Assembly: GCA_027023025.1 (NCBI GenBank)
Contig: JALVXB010000028.1
Coordinates: 1 to 36,461, forward strand
Direction of reading: 5' to 3'
Length of the DNA stretch: 36,461 bases
Source of the DNA: Caldisericaceae bacterium
GTDB lineage: Bacteria > Caldisericota > Caldisericia > Caldisericales > Caldisericaceae
The notes under the pieces are model-generated. The model was not told the DNA's origin, made no database searches, and saw only the letters and a list, made by a program, of their open reading frames with translations. Within the stretch, counting starts at the first letter, position 1. The number at the start of each line of letters is the position of its first letter. Position numbers and translations under genes: made by a program. Of the stretch, positions 6,605 through 18,376 are shown one piece after another.

Positions 6605-7714
6605 TTAGAATTCCTCCCTGAATGTACCCGGTAAAACTTCTGTAGTGGTTCCTGGAATTATAAAGTGGGGTGGTGGATTAGTGTAGTAATCTGTTACATA
6701 TTGCATGCTCGTATCACCCCATGGCCCTCCTAATTCACCTAACGGATTTTTTTCTATAACTTCCCCGTCTATTTCTCCGTACGAAGAGATACTATATTCC
6801 ATATCTACTCCGCCTGCAGTGTATATGAAACCGTGAAGATACAGAGTGGTGTCATCGTCGTAACTGTAAGTAAAATTAAACTCTACAGTTCCGCTTCCAA
6901 AGTGAGTGATAATTGGATATGTGGAATTGTTGTCTTTACTGTTTTCAGCTCCGTACCAGTTAGTATCGTCACCATTTGCAGGACCCATCTTGTCCAGAAT
7001 AAGATTTTTTGCATTCGTTATTATCGAGAGATTGTAAGATTCATCGTAAATGTAAACGAAACTTACTGTTAGTGTAGCATCAGCTTCCGTTTGTATGTAA
7101 ATCACCTTTCCGAGGTCTTGAGGTAATACATAATAGGTAGGACTTGTTCCAGATATTTCCACATATTTTTCTGCGTAATTTTCGTTATAGTAGTTTTCAT
7201 CAGGATAAGGTACAGATGCTGGAGAATTATTGTATTTATATCGATTTCCGTAAATATAATTGTAAAAATAGCTTCTTCTTACACCGTCGCGTCCACCTGT
7301 GGATGTAAATAAACAGTACTTAAATGGATCGCTTATGTTGCTTCCAAGTTGGACTGATGCAAATATCTTTCGTGAAAACGACCCTGTTTTACCTATTGAT
7401 TCAATGTAGGAATCTCCTCCAAAGCCTGAATTATCAGGTGTGTGATAAATCGTAGTGAAATTTCCTATTCCGTTTACTGCTCCAGATATAGAATCTCCAT
7501 CGTTATAGATAATACCGCTGTTTAGATTGGCGATCATTTGGTTTACGCCCATTTCAGCAAGGTAAAGTGCTTGTTCTCTCTGATAAATTTCAGTCTCCTG
7601 TAACGCACTAAATCTCAATCTCCTGAGAAGGCTGTTTGCAAACACTACCATAACCACGGCAATTATTAAAATGACAATTATTAAAGCCTGTCCTCTCCTC
7701 TTTTGACCACTCAT
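6605..7714 (-). CDS. PilX/GspK-like minor pilin
   Basis: 369 residues. The N-terminus is RRGQALIIVILIIAVVMVVFANSLLRR, followed by EREQALYLAEMGVNQ-type sequence (here EIYQREQALYLAEMGVNQ), the signature of PilX N-terminal-domain proteins. There is no Glu at +5 after the putative Gly cleavage site, as in GspK, which caps the pseudopilus tip. The long C-terminal region (residues 80-369) is Tyr/Asn/Gly-rich with no recognised domain and may be an adhesive or surface-exposed head. First gene of the second pilus operon: a promoter lies 10-37 nt upstream and no Shine-Dalgarno precedes the ATG. Confidence 0.75.
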   Translation of the reverse strand: MSGQKRRGQALIIVILIIAVVMVVFANSLLRRLRFSALQETEIYQREQALYLAEMGVNQMIANLNSGIIYNDGDSISGAVNGIGNFTTIYHTPDNSGFGGDSYIESIGKTGSFSRKIFASVQLGSNISDPFKYCLFTSTGGRDGVRRSYFYNYIYGNRYKYNNSPASVPYPDENYYNENYAEKYVEISGTSPTYYVLPQDLGKVIYIQTEADATLTVSFVYIYDESYNLSIITNAKNLILDKMGPANGDDTNWYGAENSKDNNSTYPIITHFGSGTVEFNFTYSYDDDTTLYLHGFIYTAGGVDMEYSISSYGEIDGEVIEKNPLGELGGPWGDTSMQYVTDYYTNPPPHFIIPGTTTEVLPGTFREEF

Positions 7715-11477: not shown

Positions 11478-11504
11478 CTAATTCTTTGGAAGGGGGTGGC
11501 TGAA

Positions 11505-11924
11505 ATGCGCACTGAAGGAAAACACATTATTATGGATGCTTCTGGCTGCAGTCCAGAAACTCTGAACGACCTCGAAGCGCTGAAGCAGATCCTTGTGGAT
11601 GCTGCGGAGAAAGCTAATGCAACAGTTTTGAACGTTGCATTTCACCATTTTACTCCTCAGGGAGTTAGTGGGGTGGTGGTAATTTCTGAATCTCATCTCT
11701 CCATACACACCTGGCCTGAGTATGGGTATGCTGCACTCGACTTTTATACATGCGGCGATGCCGATCCGAAAGTTGCATGTGAATATGTTGCTGAGAAACT
11801 AGGTGCAAAACACATTCATACGACGGAAATTGCCAGGGGAGAAGAAGAAAATGGAAAATACCTCCACAGGATTGTAAACACTAAGGAATCTGAGAATGAG
11901 CAAAAAGTATCTGTACTTTCATGA
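11505..11924 (+). CDS. speH: S-adenosylmethionine decarboxylase proenzyme (SpeH type)
   Basis: 139 residues. It decarboxylates S-adenosylmethionine to supply the aminopropyl donor for polyamines. The self-cleavage site is E62-S63 in SESHLSIHTWPE; Ser63 becomes the pyruvoyl cofactor and the two chains assemble. Other family motifs are GKHIIMDASGC, the HHF segment and YTCGDADP with the catalytic Cys. This is the short prokaryotic class 1B form (as in Thermotoga and Bacillus). I choose the ATG at 11505 because GGAAGGGGG precedes it by about 8 nt; an in-frame GTG at 11496 lies inside that binding site. The gene overlaps the next by 29 nt. Often named speD in annotations. Confidence 0.93.
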   Translation: MRTEGKHIIMDASGCSPETLNDLEALKQILVDAAEKANATVLNVAFHHFTPQGVSGVVVISESHLSIHTWPEYGYAALDFYTCGDADPKVACEYVAEKLGAKHIHTTEIARGEEENGKYLHRIVNTKESENEQKVSVLS

Positions 11925-12831
11925 CAAGTTTGAGGAAGGTGAAGAACATCTGCACGGTATAGAGAGTGTGCTTGCTGAGGCAAAAACACCCTATCAATTC
12001 ATGCAGATCGTAGAGAGTACTTTTTACGGTAAGATGCTTATTATTGACGGAGATGTACAGTCGTCCGTAAAGGATGAATATATCTATCACGAAGCGCTTG
12101 TTCATCCTGCTATGCTTTTACACCCCAATCCTAAAAAAGTTTTTATTTTTGGTGGTGGTGAAGGTGCAACTTTAAGGGAGGTATTAAAGCATAACAGTGT
12201 TGAAAAAGCAATCATGATAGATATAGATGAACAGGAAATAAGTTTAAATAAAAAATTTCTTACTGAGTGGCACAGAGGTTCTTTTGATAATCCTAAGGCT
12301 TCAGTACTGAACACTGATGCGCGGCATTTTATGGAGAAAAGCGTTTCCTCTAATTCAAGCGAAGTAATCATTAGTGACCTGACGGAGCCGTTTGATGCAG
12401 GACCTTCGTATAAACTGTTTACTAAAGAATTTTTTGAACTTTTGTTTGACAGACTTACTACGGATGGTATTTTTGTTTTACAGGCTTCTATGCTGAGAAA
12501 TGTTACTTTTAGAATGCACAGGGCAATAAGGAACACATTGTCAAAAGTATTTCCCATAGTACGCAGTTATTATGCTTATGTGCCAAGCTTTGACACGACC
12601 TGGAGTTTTGTGCTTGCGTCCAAGCAGTACGATCCAAAAGCACTTTCGGTAGAAAAGGTTAATTCCCTTATCCAGCGGAGAATAAACGGCGATCTGCGTT
12701 TTTACGATGGAGAAGCACATACGAGGATGTTTTCACTGCCCAAAGACATTAAACGCATTTTAAGTAAGGACACAGAAGAGATTATAACAGACAGCAAACC
12801 ACTTGTGCTAAAAAGAAAAGAAAATGTATGA
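11896..12831 (+). CDS. speE: Polyamine aminopropyltransferase, ACL5/thermospermine-synthase-like
   Basis: 311 residues, SAM-dependent-methyltransferase-like fold. It transfers the aminopropyl group of decarboxylated AdoMet to a di- or polyamine, releasing methylthioadenosine. Motifs: KDEYIYHEALVHPAMLLHPNPK, nucleotide-binding GGGEG at 86-90, and SDLTEPFDAGPSYKLFT with the catalytic Asp at 161. The GGGEG form, the DLTEP...GPSY block and YVPSFDTTWSF (228-238) resemble plant ACL5 thermospermine synthases more than classical spermidine synthases, which usually have GGGDG and DSTDP. The product may therefore be thermospermine or another long polyamine. ATG at 11896 has AAGGA 8 nt upstream. Overlaps the next gene by 4 nt (ATGA). 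Confidence 0.9.
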   Translation: MSKKYLYFHDKFEEGEEHLHGIESVLAEAKTPYQFMQIVESTFYGKMLIIDGDVQSSVKDEYIYHEALVHPAMLLHPNPKKVFIFGGGEGATLREVLKHNSVEKAIMIDIDEQEISLNKKFLTEWHRGSFDNPKASVLNTDARHFMEKSVSSNSSEVIISDLTEPFDAGPSYKLFTKEFFELLFDRLTTDGIFVLQASMLRNVTFRMHRAIRNTLSKVFPIVRSYYAYVPSFDTTWSFVLASKQYDPKALSVEKVNSLIQRRINGDLRFYDGEAHTRMFSLPKDIKRILSKDTEEIITDSKPLVLKRKENV

Positions 12832-14108
12832 TTCTTATTAAAAACGGAACAATTCTCACGCTTAAAGGAAATAAATTTTTCACGGGAGACCTTGCAATGA
12901 AGGACTCCCGTATTTTTTATGTGGGTAAAAGCAAGAAGTGGGATGTAGAATTTAACACAGTAATTGACGGGACTGATTTTATCGTAATGCCGGGATTTGT
13001 TAACACGCATACGCACCTTGCAATGGTACTGATGCGCGGCATTGCAGACGATATAGAACTCCATAAATGGCTTAACGATGTTATTTTTCCTATTGAGGGC
13101 AAACTCACGAAGGATGATGTTTACTTTGGTTCGCTCCTTGCTTCAATTGAGTCGATAAAATCTGGCGTTACCGCTGTTGCAGATTTTTACTTTCACATGG
13201 ACGCTGTATTTAACGCGGTAAAAGAAACAGGTATTCGCGCAAATTTAGGTTTTGGGCTTGCATCTAAGTTTGACTTTGACATGATAAAACTAAAAGTAGC
13301 GACAGATTTCGTAAAAAAGTACAATGGCCTAGAAGATGGTAGAATACTTGCAAGTTTTGCGCCCCATGCGCCATATACCTGTACGCTGAAGTTCATGGAA
13401 GCGATTGCAAAGCGTGCAAAGGAAATGGGAGTGCTCGTCCATACGCACTTACACGAGACAGAAAAGGAAATTGTGGATTTTAAAAAACAGTACGGAACAA
13501 CTCCTATACAAAAACTTGCTTCTGTTGGGTTTTTCGATGCGAAAGTAAATGCGGCGCACTGCGTATATATGAGTACAGAAGACTACAAAATTTTAAAAGA
13601 GCATAGTGTAGGTGCTGCATTGAACACTCAAAGCAACTTAAAACTTGGTTCTGGTATTCCCAATATTCCTGAAATGCTAAGATACGGATTAAACCTCGGC
13701 ATTGGAACTGACGGCGCTTCGTCGAATAATAACCTTGTACTACTTGAAGATATGCGGCTCGTGTCGTTTTTAGCAAAAGGGCTTTCGCGTGACCCACAGC
13801 TTCTTCCAGCAGACGAACTTTTAAGGATTGCCACAATAAACGGTGCAAAAAATATTGGATTTAGTGATGTAGGCTTATTAAAAGAAGGATACAGAGCGGA
13901 CATTATATTAATTAATAAAAATAGTGAAACATTAACGCCATTTACAAATCCACATTCTCTCGTTGCGTATTCTATGAAACCCAGTGATGTTGATACGGTT
14001 ATAGTCAACGGAAACATCGTTATGCAGCACCGAAAAGTTTTAACTGTGGACGAGGAAGCAGTTAAAAAAGAAGTCAGAAAACATTATAAACGCTTGGTTG
14101 GTTCTTAA
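12828..14108 (+). CDS. mtaD: 5-methylthioadenosine/S-adenosylhomocysteine deaminase
   Basis: 426 residues, amidohydrolase superfamily, MtaD/TrzA branch. Metal ligands are in VNTHTHLAM (HxH near residue 62), HLHETEKE, AHCVYMS and GTDGASSNNNL. A small beta-sandwich is formed by the N- and C-terminal strands. The enzyme deaminates methylthioadenosine or S-adenosylhomocysteine to the inosine forms. Its place directly after the aminopropyltransferase, with an ATGA overlap, fits removal of the methylthioadenosine that reaction produces. In many bacteria this role is filled by an MTA nucleosidase or phosphorylase; neither is in the window. Confidence 0.92.
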   Translation: MILIKNGTILTLKGNKFFTGDLAMKDSRIFYVGKSKKWDVEFNTVIDGTDFIVMPGFVNTHTHLAMVLMRGIADDIELHKWLNDVIFPIEGKLTKDDVYFGSLLASIESIKSGVTAVADFYFHMDAVFNAVKETGIRANLGFGLASKFDFDMIKLKVATDFVKKYNGLEDGRILASFAPHAPYTCTLKFMEAIAKRAKEMGVLVHTHLHETEKEIVDFKKQYGTTPIQKLASVGFFDAKVNAAHCVYMSTEDYKILKEHSVGAALNTQSNLKLGSGIPNIPEMLRYGLNLGIGTDGASSNNNLVLLEDMRLVSFLAKGLSRDPQLLPADELLRIATINGAKNIGFSDVGLLKEGYRADIILINKNSETLTPFTNPHSLVAYSMKPSDVDTVIVNGNIVMQHRKVLTVDEEAVKKEVRKHYKRLVGS

Positions 14109-14271: not shown

Positions 14272-14310
14272 GTTCATCACTCTAAGCAAGCGAAGAGTCT
14301 CTGGCTTAGA
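14272..14310 (+). repeat. Intergenic repeat, copy B
   Basis: GTTCATCACTCTAAGCAAGC then GAAGAGTCTCTGGCTTAGA. It shares the GAAGAGTCTCTGGCTTA end with copy D, suggesting two subtypes (GAATCTCTGCC and GAGTCTCTGGC). Confidence 0.55.
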
Positions 14311-14346
14311 TAAACATTTTATATTTTTATACCACTTGCATTTTTC

Positions 14347-14408: not shown

Positions 14409-14446
14409 TGTCACTATAAGTAAAGCAAAGAGTCTCTGGCTTAAAT
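14409..14446 (+). repeat. Intergenic repeat, copy D
   Basis: TGTCACTATAAGTAAAGC then AAAGAGTCTCTGGCTTAAAT. Same subtype as copy B. Confidence 0.55.
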
Positions 14447-14583
14447 AATTACTTTCAAAGATAAGCGCATTCTAAAAAAGAAGCAAAAGATAACCAAGTT
14501 TGCTTTCCAGAAGCTGAGTAAAAAAACCATTGTTATATGCGCATAAAATTCTGCAATAAAATTATCAAAGATCCTTAAAACAA

Positions 14584-14647: not shown

Positions 14648-17600
14648 CTACGGCATATAGGTTACCGTTGCTGTTTTACTATCTTTATCAAATTTGTAAT
14701 TCAGGCCAAAGGCATACGCAAGAGAGTATAGAGGAATCATTGGAGTTCCATTCTCCATATATCCTTTAATGTCTGGATTATTAGGGAATAACGGAATCGC
14801 GTTACTGTTCAACAGTGCTTTGTTCTGCCCCACCCAGTACTCAAATTTATTACCCAAAAACACAATTGTAATCTTCTTTGCAGCAGGATCGAAAGAATAA
14901 TTACCAAACAGAGATTTAGAGATACTCTCCGCAGGGACAAACAAGCACCCGAACTTTTCGTTATAAACTGCCGAATTATTATTTTCAGGATCCAACTTCA
15001 GCGTAGTTCCATTTTTCGTATAAGTGGTACTACCTGCTTTTACGACGACCTTAACAGGATACTTCACAATAATACTACTACTTAACTTACTCGTCGCATT
15101 ATCTTTGCCATCTCCAGTTGAATCAAAATTAATCACACCGTTAAGTGGTATGACAGTGCCGTTTTCCACATCCTTTGCAACTTTCAGCGCAATGTGCAAA
15201 GTTACCGATTTGCCTTTTTTTATGCTTCCATTCCAGACGATTTTGCCGTTTAAAACTTTCACAGCGCCAGAGACAGAAGCAGCACTAACGGCACTTGTAA
15301 GTTGCGGAATTGCCATCTCAAACTCGTTTGCATTTGGGTCATCCTTCTGCAAACCCGCACCAATATTCTTTATCACGACACTTATATCTACAGTATCTCC
15401 CGGTTTTAACTGCTTAAAATTCGGCACACTTATAAACCCAGTAAGTTTTGGAATTGGCTTTATGGGCTCAAGCGGTAAATACGGAATTACGGCGTACTTC
15501 TTAGTCTTTACATCAAAACTATTTAGAATATCTTTCTGAGATTTGCCGTTTGGAACAAAAATATCGTATACATTTGGAGAAACGCCTGCACTAAATGCAC
15601 CTGGGTCAGCACCACCTCCCTGCCATTCAGCGGCAGTAGGTGCAACAATTCTCCAATAACCCGTACCGTAGCCATCCTGACTTCCAGAGATAATTGCAAT
15701 GTAAGGCTTGTACGAACTGCTAATCGTAATGTACTTCTTCGGCAAAACAACTGTAATCGTATTTGCATTTTGGTCTGTTTGAATTTGCAACTCCCCCTGC
15801 ACAGTGGTTCCATCAGAAAGTTTTATAAAGTTTCCATAAGACCAGCCTGCAATACGCAGGGCAATATCCCAGGGATGTTCAGGTGAAAGCAAAACTCTTG
15901 GACCTTTGGGCACAATCGGCTGAGTTTTTCCACCGTCCTTAAAATCGATGTAAGTTTCTACGATCTGAAAAGAGAAACCGTTCGGCCCATTCCAGGGGTT
16001 CCCACCTAAATTAGAAAATTTATACTGAAGAATGTAGTTTTCTCCATTATCTAACATCTTAAAGTGGACGAGGTCAAAAAGTCCTTCCCCTGCACTCTTA
16101 AATACATCTGCAAGCGGATACTGGTAATTGCCCGGACCATTGTCGTCATATGCGTCGTCGAGTAATTCCCCTACGACATTTCCGCTGAGTTTTACGGGAA
16201 ATTTAAACTGCATCGGAGGTGTAAGTACTTCAAACACGCCATTATTCTTCGTTGCAAGAACAACCCACACATTATTTTCGAAAATGCCAGAAAGAGAGAT
16301 TCCTCTCTTTTGCATAATTTTATCTGCTGCATAATATCCAGAAACAGGTATACCAATCGTATACGAATTGTAAGGGAATGGATTCATTGCAATCTCCGGC
16401 TTTCCGTTAACGAAAACGGGCATAATAGAATTTTCGTCGCCCCAGAATACATAAAGGTTTGGCAAAGATTTTATAGCAAAGGTAACGACAAAATTGCCCT
16501 TTTCTTTTGATTCGCTGAAGGATTTAATAGAGATATTTACATCTTTCAAAAGAGGGACTTCAGGCATTTTATCATTAGAGAAATAGACCGGTTTATAAGA
16601 GTACGGCGTGCCGTCAGGGAAGTAGTTGCTATACAAATACAAAGGCACACTTTCACCAAGCATTCCGTACAGTTCCATAAGGTACAGCTTAAACAATCTG
16701 TCGAACGATGGGTCGTTTCCAGAATCCTGATCGGAGCCGTACCACCAGAACCAATCGCTTCCCTCTGCACGCATTAGTAAATTATATGCTTTATTTTTTT
16801 CTTCTTCAGAAAGACTGCTTGTTTTGCTTAACAATCTTGCCCTTGCAGCCTTTAGCCACATCCAGGCAACATTCTCTTGCTTTTCCCCAATCCAGGTGTC
16901 CAGAGTAGGATTCACCCAGCTCGATTCTCCAAATTTTCCATTTATTTTCTTAACAGGCAAAGCACCGTAAGAAGTAATTGAGGAAATGTCTTTACCCTGT
17001 AAGTCTAATACGCTCACTTTATGTATTGGGACGGTTTTTCCTTTCCCAAAATTTTTAATATATTGAGAGGGAGTAATTAATCGGATTTTCCCTTCTTTCT
17101 CAAGTTTACTCAGTTCTTTGTAAAATGCATTAAGGAAATCATTTCCGTCATTCGGATAGTATTCCCAGACATTTTCCCCGTCAAGTGCAATTGTATATAC
17201 GAGATTTCCGCTTTTGTTTAGTTTTTCTACATCAAGCAGCGTTGTTTTCACATCGTTTATTGCATCTTCTATGCTTTTGCCTGAATACCTGAATCCTATC
17301 CCGTCAGAAAGATATTTTTCTCTGAAAAATACAGTAACGCCGTCCACATCGTATGGCACATACTGCAGAGAAGGGTTGTTTTTTACATCTACCCCTAATT
17401 GGTTTAGATTGGATGCATCTGAAATCGTCCAATTCCACCCATTTTCTTTAAACACTTTCAGCGCTTCGTCGTTCAATGCACATTCCGATGCCCATGCACC
17501 ATCAGGTTTTTCATTAAATACTTTATAAAACAAATTATTCGCCGTTTTTATTTGCATCTTTAAGTCGTTATCCCATCCAAAATCAGTAAGTAAAGCAGAA

Positions 17601-18376
17601 ATTGGGTGGGAGTAAGGTGTAGTTACGACTTCAGCCTGGCCGCTGGAAATAAGTTTTTTATACCAGGAGAAAACATTCTGTATAAGCTCACTTTGTCTAT
17701 TTAAAATAAGTTGAACATCGGAATAGGTAAAATTCTCGCTGTTTTCTGCCTTCTCGTATAACGGTTTAAGCTCAGGATCGTTCTTCACATATTCACTATC
17801 CATCCAGAACAGATTAAACAAAGCAACAAGATTCGTATAGTCCTGGTTTGAAAGGTAATTAACGATTGCCTTCTTATTAAGAGGGTTACCAAACTTCTTA
17901 AATGCTTCGTCGCGCTTATCAAGCAACTTTTTATAAAGAGGCACTTTTTTTACTATGTGGTCCCAATTAATGTCAAAAAATCCACCAGGTATCTGTATTA
18001 TTTCCCACTTCTGGCTATCAGTAAGCTTCTCTGCAGGAATTTCAGAGAGGATTTCACGAATATCCTTTTCTCCCTTCTGGTAATCAATAAGTTGCTGCAT
18101 AAGTGAACCAGAAAGGTCAAATGTGACTTTCACATCAGGATATTTGGAAACGAGATACGGCATTCTCCAGTAATCTTTTACGGCGTGAAGCCTCACCCAG
18201 GGCAAAATAAATTCCTTTTTTAAAGGATTCTCGTAGAACGGCTGGTGATTGTGCCACACGATAATGACATTGAGCGGCTTTTCCTTTGGCGCACATCCAC
18301 CGCCAGGAAGAACGACAAGCATACCTACAAAAGTAACGACGAGAAAATACACTACAAACCTTCGCCAATTTTTCAT
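14648..18376 (-). CDS. GH57 amylopullulanase-like secreted lipoprotein
   Basis: 1242 residues. An N-terminal hydrophobic signal ends in LPGGGC, probably a lipobox (Cys28), so the protein is likely anchored outside the membrane. Residues 35-460 are a GH57 alpha-glycosidase domain: HNHQPFY near 42, nucleophile E298 in WASECALN, acid/base D399 in ALDGENVWE. Both catalytic residues are present. A region at about 730-968 resembles the glucodextranase C-terminal/DOMON-like carbohydrate-binding module of amylopullulanases, 975-1095 is a beta-sandwich (LKPGDTVDISVVIKNIGAG), and 1105-1242 resembles the copper-amine-oxidase N-terminal domain repeats (FVPAESISKSLFG, MIPLYSLAYAFG), often found on cell-surface proteins. 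It probably cleaves alpha-1,4 and alpha-1,6 links in starch or pullulan. AGGAGG precedes the ATG. No transporter neighbours. Confidence 0.9.
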   Translation of the reverse strand: MKNWRRFVVYFLVVTFVGMLVVLPGGGCAPKEKPLNVIIVWHNHQPFYENPLKKEFILPWVRLHAVKDYWRMPYLVSKYPDVKVTFDLSGSLMQQLIDYQKGEKDIREILSEIPAEKLTDSQKWEIIQIPGGFFDINWDHIVKKVPLYKKLLDKRDEAFKKFGNPLNKKAIVNYLSNQDYTNLVALFNLFWMDSEYVKNDPELKPLYEKAENSENFTYSDVQLILNRQSELIQNVFSWYKKLISSGQAEVVTTPYSHPISALLTDFGWDNDLKMQIKTANNLFYKVFNEKPDGAWASECALNDEALKVFKENGWNWTISDASNLNQLGVDVKNNPSLQYVPYDVDGVTVFFREKYLSDGIGFRYSGKSIEDAINDVKTTLLDVEKLNKSGNLVYTIALDGENVWEYYPNDGNDFLNAFYKELSKLEKEGKIRLITPSQYIKNFGKGKTVPIHKVSVLDLQGKDISSITSYGALPVKKINGKFGESSWVNPTLDTWIGEKQENVAWMWLKAARARLLSKTSSLSEEEKNKAYNLLMRAEGSDWFWWYGSDQDSGNDPSFDRLFKLYLMELYGMLGESVPLYLYSNYFPDGTPYSYKPVYFSNDKMPEVPLLKDVNISIKSFSESKEKGNFVVTFAIKSLPNLYVFWGDENSIMPVFVNGKPEIAMNPFPYNSYTIGIPVSGYYAADKIMQKRGISLSGIFENNVWVVLATKNNGVFEVLTPPMQFKFPVKLSGNVVGELLDDAYDDNGPGNYQYPLADVFKSAGEGLFDLVHFKMLDNGENYILQYKFSNLGGNPWNGPNGFSFQIVETYIDFKDGGKTQPIVPKGPRVLLSPEHPWDIALRIAGWSYGNFIKLSDGTTVQGELQIQTDQNANTITVVLPKKYITISSSYKPYIAIISGSQDGYGTGYWRIVAPTAAEWQGGGADPGAFSAGVSPNVYDIFVPNGKSQKDILNSFDVKTKKYAVIPYLPLEPIKPIPKLTGFISVPNFKQLKPGDTVDISVVIKNIGAGLQKDDPNANEFEMAIPQLTSAVSAASVSGAVKVLNGKIVWNGSIKKGKSVTLHIALKVAKDVENGTVIPLNGVINFDSTGDGKDNATSKLSSSIIVKYPVKVVVKAGSTTYTKNGTTLKLDPENNNSAVYNEKFGCLFVPAESISKSLFGNYSFDPAAKKITIVFLGNKFEYWVGQNKALLNSNAIPLFPNNPDIKGYMENGTPMIPLYSLAYAFGLNYKFDKDSKTATVTYMP

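Follow-up and report, generated by a model that had tools for sequence, protein, structure and literature searches.

The closest described relatives of the SpeE protein considered here come from Thermus, from the archaeon Pyrobaculum calidifontis and from plants. Thermus SpeE produces thermospermine far more than spermine (PMC11107197), and T. thermophilus arrives at spermidine through agmatine (PMC12979288, section 6). The P. calidifontis enzyme converts spermidine to thermospermine, and combines a low affinity for putrescine with high activity on aminopropylagmatine and norspermidine (PMC12175538). The Medicago enzyme MtTSPS is set apart from plant spermidine synthase by Asp129 and Leu179 (PMC6514230). 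In general, thermospermine synthases mostly carry Glu in motif 2; however, spermidine and aminopropylagmatine synthases are interspersed in the thermospermine-synthase clade and no motif separates them (PMC11107197, section 10). Most of the tetraamine synthases assayed by expression in E. coli also made spermidine from putrescine, and Table 1 of the same paper contains no Caldisericota enzyme (PMC11107197). A search of the open-access literature found no paper on the polyamines of Caldisericum or the specificity of its SpeE.

The window analyzed here is a stretch of 36,461 nucleotides from a Caldisericaceae bacterium (contig JALVXB010000028.1 of assembly GCA_027023025.1). The genome to which it belongs comprises 1.66 Mb in 43 contigs and is 99.89% complete. 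An original prediction had read one of its genes, at 11896–12831, as a likely thermospermine synthase with motifs matching the plant ACL5 enzymes.

The speD-speE-deaminase cluster

The speE reading frame is intact and extends from an ATG at 11896 to 12831 on the plus strand, encoding 311 amino acids. A profile search matched the protein to PF01564 (Spermine_synth) with 153.4 bits against a cut-off of 22.9 (E = 6.6e-45) and to the N-terminal tetramerisation domain PF17284 with 38 bits against a cut-off of 22.1. From both domains and the predicted fold, it is a member of the SpeE-type aminopropyltransferase family. The protein scores below the TIGR00417 cut-off for speE (228.3 versus 249.55 bits) and also below that of NF002010 (253.5 versus 260 bits), a narrow miss that weakens the name of spermidine synthase rather than the activity.

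Upstream, speD (11496..11924, plus strand) has the profile of an S-adenosylmethionine decarboxylase of the B. subtilis type, with matches to PF02675 (2e-44), TIGR03330 (153.3 bits, cut-off 75.65) and the PDB entries 1tlu, 1vr7 and 1tmi (114–116 bits). Its ATG at 11505 is a likelier start than the GTG as listed. SpeD would be responsible for synthesis of the aminopropyl donor. The reading frames of speD and speE overlap by 29 bases, and speE in turn overlaps by 4 bases with a downstream amidohydrolase gene (12828..14108, plus strand; PF01979, 2.5e-74). The best PDB match of the amidohydrolase is the MTA/SAH deaminase 4f0r with 242.5 bits, followed by TM0936 with 229 bits, and the enzyme probably clears the methylthioadenosine by-product.

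Among the 21 nearest loci (L002–L022), speD lies just upstream of speE in all 21 and the deaminase just downstream in 17, being absent from that position in L010, L011, L012 and L015. The nearest named records to SpeE are from Caldisericota, and the organism, a relative of Caldisericum, has its polyamine genes clustered as speD-speE-mtaD. In E. coli, speD adjoins speE as well. At one related locus, a PNP/UDP phosphorylase gene (PF01048; L009:7203-7994) directly follows the deaminase, which fits a deaminase-first salvage of methylthioadenosine.

The surroundings of the cluster present some further features. Two 33-nt copies of a sequence (AAGCGAAGAGTCTCTGGCTTA...), 85% identical to each other, are located at 14288–14320 and 14423–14455 in the intergenic region 3' of the deaminase gene; we take them to resemble the short repeats that are dispersed in the genomes of other bacteria. 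They are followed on the minus strand (14648–18376) by a gene for a protein of 1242 amino acids, in which a GH57 domain is combined with a glucodextranase C-terminal module and a domain resembling the copper-amine-oxidase N-terminus. Further away, the minus-strand gene at 6605–7714 encodes a protein that weakly matches tapirin in its N-terminal part (E = 0.00042, well short of the cut-off), and judging from PilB- and PilC-like translations, the minus-strand gene run around it resembles a cluster for a type IV pilus.

Active-site motifs and placement of SpeE

Three motifs on which the original prediction was founded, GGGEG, DLTEPFDAGPSY and YVPSFDTTWSF, are indeed present and are conserved in related proteins. 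From the alignment, GGGEG (aa. 86–90; 12151..12165, plus strand) is the dcAdoMet-binding motif 2 in its Glu form, and IDIDEQE (aa. 108–114; 12217..12237, plus strand) is motif 3, with an Asp equivalent to Asp129 of MtTSPS. The segment DLTEPFDAGPSY (aa. 161–172; 12376..12411, plus strand) supplies the catalytic Asp and an adenine-stacking Leu that corresponds to Leu179 of MtTSPS, and presents a Glu at a position where most enzymes have Asp. The C-terminal motif YVPSFDTTWSF (aa. 228–238; 12577..12609, plus strand) aligns with IPSYADIWGW of the plant enzyme. Since DLTEP and PSFDTTW are both kept in all seven of the loci L002–L008, the motifs are not a product of chance.

In an alignment of 69 rows, motif 2 has Glu in 43 of the 45 rows on the thermospermine-synthase side, whereas all 24 rows on the spermidine-synthase side have Asp and none has Glu. 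The motif 3 Asp is found in 44/45 rows of the former and 6/24 of the latter, and the position that follows the catalytic Asp holds Leu, Ile or Val in 45/45 rows against Ser in 22/24. As the loci were gathered with peptides of the window SpeE, its kin are over-represented and these counts describe those kin rather than the family as a whole. Within this set, the contrast between GGGEG and GGGDG stands as proposed; the companion contrast with DSTDP is too simple, since the spermidine synthase of B. subtilis has DSTEP. Reading the product from DLTEP was also considered and rejected, with Glu replacing Asp in 13/45 rows on the thermospermine-synthase side and in 5/24 on the other.

A phmmer search against the PDB ranked Thermus SpeE first (1uir/3anx, 245–247 bits), followed by the Pyrobaculum (7xif, 207 bits) and Medicago (6bq2, 201 bits) enzymes and then by the spermidine synthases of T. 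maritima (173 bits) and B. subtilis (170 bits). The identity with Thermus SpeE, a triamine/agmatine aminopropyltransferase, is 43.1% over 295 aligned positions. GGGEG, the DLT motif and the motif 3 Asp are common to both; where the window SpeE has DLTEP and PSFDTTW, however, the Thermus enzyme has DLTDP and PGFFLNF. Pyrobaculum SpeE is 39.5% identical, also shares GGGEG and the DLT motif, and forms a separate archaeal branch in the tree. With plant ACL5/MtTSPS, the identity is 37.8% and the common features are the motif 2 Glu, the motif 3 Asp, the Leu that follows the catalytic Asp, and the segments GP(S/C)YKL(F/Y)TK and PS(F/Y)xxxW. The enzymes of T. maritima (1inl), B. subtilis (1iy9) and E. 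coli have the same fold and are 32–37% identical, but carry GGGDG and D-(S/C)-T-(D/E)-P.

The AlphaFold2 model of SpeE (pLDDT = 93.0, pTM = 0.92) was compared with known structures by VIA-align, in which entries at most 1 Z apart are considered tied. Thermus 1uir (Z = 43.5, 1.7 Å, 303 aligned) and Medicago 6bq2 (Z = 42.5, 1.4 Å, 290 aligned) were followed by Pyrobaculum 7xif (Z = 40.2, 1.9 Å, 282 aligned) and T. maritima 1jq3 (Z = 39.1, 2.2 Å, 283 aligned). While the fold comparison is about tied, Thermus SpeE is closer than the plant enzyme by both score and identity. The backbone of the tree among the Thermus, plant, cyanobacterial, Chloroflexi and Caldisericota branches offers no resolution. 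The plant enzyme was accordingly discarded as the nearest kin, and "plant ACL5-like" is not a fair label for the window SpeE.

A tree had been suggested as a check on the prediction. It was calculated from 69 rows (L002–L055, L067, L078, L080, L101–L103, the window SpeE and eight references), excluding 23 loci (L056–L066, L068–L077, L079 and L081) that are mostly Clostridia/Ruminococcus spermidine synthases, the short divergent L104 and human spermine synthase. A starred branch with support of 99/92 separates SpeE and the three thermospermine-making references from the five spermidine synthases, those of T. maritima, B. subtilis and E. coli among them. A subset of 37 rows, without most of the longest branches, gave the same starred split with support of 100/99. 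AU tests agreed less firmly: placing Caldisericota beside the spermidine synthases is disfavored but only marginally so, without formal rejection (p = 0.054 with 69 rows, 0.064 with 37). Caldisericota with the plant enzyme alone gave p-AU = 0.051, and with Thermus p-AU = 0.42. From sequence, tree and predicted fold, "thermospermine-synthase clade" is a supported and fair label for SpeE, subject to these marginal AU tests.

The clade is a different matter from the product. The characterized references were limited to enzymes with a PDB entry or E. coli sequence, and because they do not include those bacterial spermidine synthases that were assayed in PMC11107197 and fall there within the thermospermine-synthase clade, the product of SpeE is not readable from the tree. 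The motifs, offered earlier as evidence of a thermospermine product, fall short for a similar reason: GGGEG marks the clade and not the product, since tested spermidine and aminopropylagmatine synthases share that clade and its motifs (PMC11107197).

Gene complement and the product of SpeE

Profile searches identified speE as the only PF01564 gene of its genome, and the Thermus genome searched alongside also has a single SpeE. Of 54 genomes searched across the phylum, 40 gave a match, in no case to more than a single gene; one of these matches is in two pieces on one contig (G044) and another is weak and partial (G023). The same searches of the SpeE-bearing genome found no PF00491 agmatinase/ureohydrolase, no PF01862 pyruvoyl arginine decarboxylase and no PF04371 agmatine deiminase, and an agmatine route was rejected on this gene content. 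The sole PF02784 protein was considered as an ornithine or arginine decarboxylase and was rejected as such, being LysA by its score over the cut-off (369 versus 298 bits); with this as the single PF02784 gene, the genome has no carboxyspermidine decarboxylase of that family.

What the genome does contain is one PF01276 decarboxylase of 482 amino acids, on contig G000:C34. A 482-aa enzyme from C. exile, an organism chosen for assay as one without agmatinase and AIH, was assayed as an ornithine decarboxylase with kcat/Km values of 590 per M per s for ornithine and 82 for arginine (PMC8503589). Judged by family, length and kinship to the C. exile enzyme, the G000:C34 protein is likely an ornithine decarboxylase, and could in principle take arginine, which the C. 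exile enzyme does 7-fold less well. Since a likely ornithine decarboxylase is present and the agmatine-route families tested are absent, putrescine is the expected diamine. SpeE would be the sole enzyme of known type seen in the genome able to make spermidine from putrescine; being the only SpeE-family gene in a genome in which no agmatine-route genes were found, it has to accept putrescine if the cell forms spermidine by any of the known routes.

The genome encodes a second aminopropyltransferase of another family. This 342-aa protein (G000:C16:7232-7966, minus strand; L105:2715-3743) matches PF01861 with about 272–273 bits and N4-bis(aminopropyl)spermidine synthase (5xnc) with 241.8 bits. 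It shares the PF01861 domain, a GDDD motif and an acidic C-terminus with 5xnc, the chain of which is longer at 371 residues. From its domain and GDDD motif, the protein can be classed as a putative branched-chain polyamine synthase, BpsA, with a product that is predicted in this case. Its gene has a one-base overlap with a yifB-like gene. BpsA enzymes build branched polyamines by extending spermidine (PMC12979288), and bpsA is also present in the Thermus composti control. Within the phylum, PF01861 was matched in 34 of 54 genomes, and in 20 of the 25 with completeness of at least 90% and contamination of at most 5%. A SpeE match accompanies it in 31 of the 34, one of which (G023) is weak.

With a rough probability of 70%, we infer the following pathway. 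Ornithine would be converted to putrescine by the decarboxylase of aspartate-aminotransferase fold, and SpeD would provide decarboxylated AdoMet. SpeE would then move an aminopropyl group onto putrescine to give spermidine, and may continue to thermospermine as its Thermus relative does. BpsA would extend spermidine to branched tetra- and pentaamines, with the amidohydrolase deaminating the methylthioadenosine freed at each transfer. In its parts, SpeE is most likely the spermidine synthase of the cell, and thermospermine is plausible as a further product, at about even odds. Because the genome also has BpsA, a branched polyamine is, by genes, at least as likely as thermospermine to be the long polyamine of the organism.

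A narrower reading, which overlaps this proposal as one half of it, is that SpeE, although of the GGGEG clade, is a plain spermidine synthase without any tetraamine product, leaving BpsA to form branched compounds as the only long polyamines. The interspersed spermidine and aminopropylagmatine synthases, which cannot be told apart by motif (PMC11107197), are in keeping with it, as is the presence of a spermidine-using BpsA, the gene of which is some 3 kb away from speE in three of five genomes of one family (G069, G070 and G072 of f7). Thermospermine is, however, made by each of the three clade members of solved structure (Medicago by its name), and no spermidine-synthase PDB entry is closer to SpeE than those three. 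This reading is possible, and we hold it only tentatively.

Less probable is a dedicated thermospermine synthase as in plants, which would use only spermidine, acquired from outside the cell. The clade, the motif 2 Glu, the motif 3 Asp and the adenine-stacking Leu are as in MtTSPS, and two Bacillota genomes, G011 and G014 (loci L012, L015, L102 and L103), provide a suggestive parallel. Both have a GGGDG-type SpeE gene between those for a pyruvoyl arginine decarboxylase (PvlArgDC) and an agmatinase, and on another contig a speD adjoining a SpeE of the window type (L012, L015). The latter group with Caldisericota with support of 92/26 in the 69-row tree and 90/91 in the 37-row tree; G014 has, in addition, a third and divergent PF01564 protein (L104). 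The window-type enzyme is the spare one in these genomes, and may have a tetraamine as its product there. This arrangement speaks for thermospermine activity being latent in the branch, and gives the thermospermine-synthase reading its strongest argument. In the Caldisericaceae genome, on the other hand, the enzyme is the sole SpeE-family member, a likely ornithine decarboxylase is encoded as well, and the searches revealed no second route of a known kind by which putrescine could become spermidine. Arabidopsis, in contrast, has a separate spermidine synthase in addition to an Acl5 with only trace spermidine-synthase activity (PMC11107197, Table 1). A search for potA gave 39 ABC ATPase matches, none over the cut-off (best 310.9 versus 355.6 bits); uptake of spermidine may nevertheless occur. 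The original prediction was partly supported: it was correct with respect to the clade, subject to the marginal AU tests, and a dedicated enzyme is unlikely.

The poorest candidate is a Thermus-like N1-aminopropylagmatine synthase, from the product of which an aminopropylagmatine ureohydrolase would release spermidine. Among relatives of solved structure Thermus SpeE is the nearest, and of the 18 bacterial spermidine synthases assayed for it, 17 accepted agmatine (PMC11107197); however, neither the ureohydrolase nor the pyruvoyl arginine decarboxylase of such a route was found in this genome, against two PF00491 genes in the Thermus genome searched, making it very improbable.

Possible branched polyamines in Candidatus Cryosericum

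Thermospermine and other long polyamines had been considered fitting for a thermophile. That argument finds no support, for two reasons: the same type of SpeE occurs in Candidatus Cryosericum, and the genome under study has BpsA as a different long-polyamine enzyme. The paper naming the Cryosericum group describes it by title as a phylum active in thawing permafrost (cited in PMC9541943). The genomes of C. hinesii (G015) and C. septentrionale (G016), represented by loci L016 and L018, have both a GGGEG-type SpeE and bpsA. BpsA of C. hinesii (L106:1839-2870; PF01861) retains the GDDD motif and is 54.8% identical to the protein described above. In the Cryosericum family as a whole (f3, to which these genomes were assigned by identical contig coordinates), bpsA was found in nine of 15 genomes and in all four with completeness of at least 90%.

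According to a 2026 review, bpsA occurs in thermophilic lineages only (PMC12979288). The Cryosericum genes, identified by sequence, run against that restriction, with the permafrost association taken from the title of the naming paper; the search of the open-access literature located no paper on bpsA outside thermophiles. The SpeE of this group is divergent. In Cryosericum and its kin (L013, L014 and L016–L022), the altered active-site motifs are DLTDL in place of DLT(D/E)P, a Thr where nearly all others have Gln, and GAYDVPW. The branch is 0.81–0.93 changes per site long in both trees. With its motifs altered and its branch long, Cryosericum SpeE may differ in substrate.

The compact pathway predicted for Caldisericota would consist of ornithine decarboxylase, SpeD, one SpeE of the GGGEG type and BpsA. 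That Cryosericum keeps this pathway for a role at low temperature, and that branched polyamines are therefore not confined to heat, is a proposal on which our confidence is evenly divided.

SpeE relatives are readily named from a single motif, and this genome illustrates how such naming fails: its one SpeE is a GGGEG enzyme, and yet spermidine is the most likely product. The Caldisericota gene set provides a clean test of whether a single GGGEG enzyme can proceed from putrescine to spermidine and on to thermospermine without an agmatine route. The distribution of bpsA is the more interesting lead: with a GDDD-containing bpsA in Cryosericum, the same gene set also tests whether branched polyamines are really an adaptation to heat.
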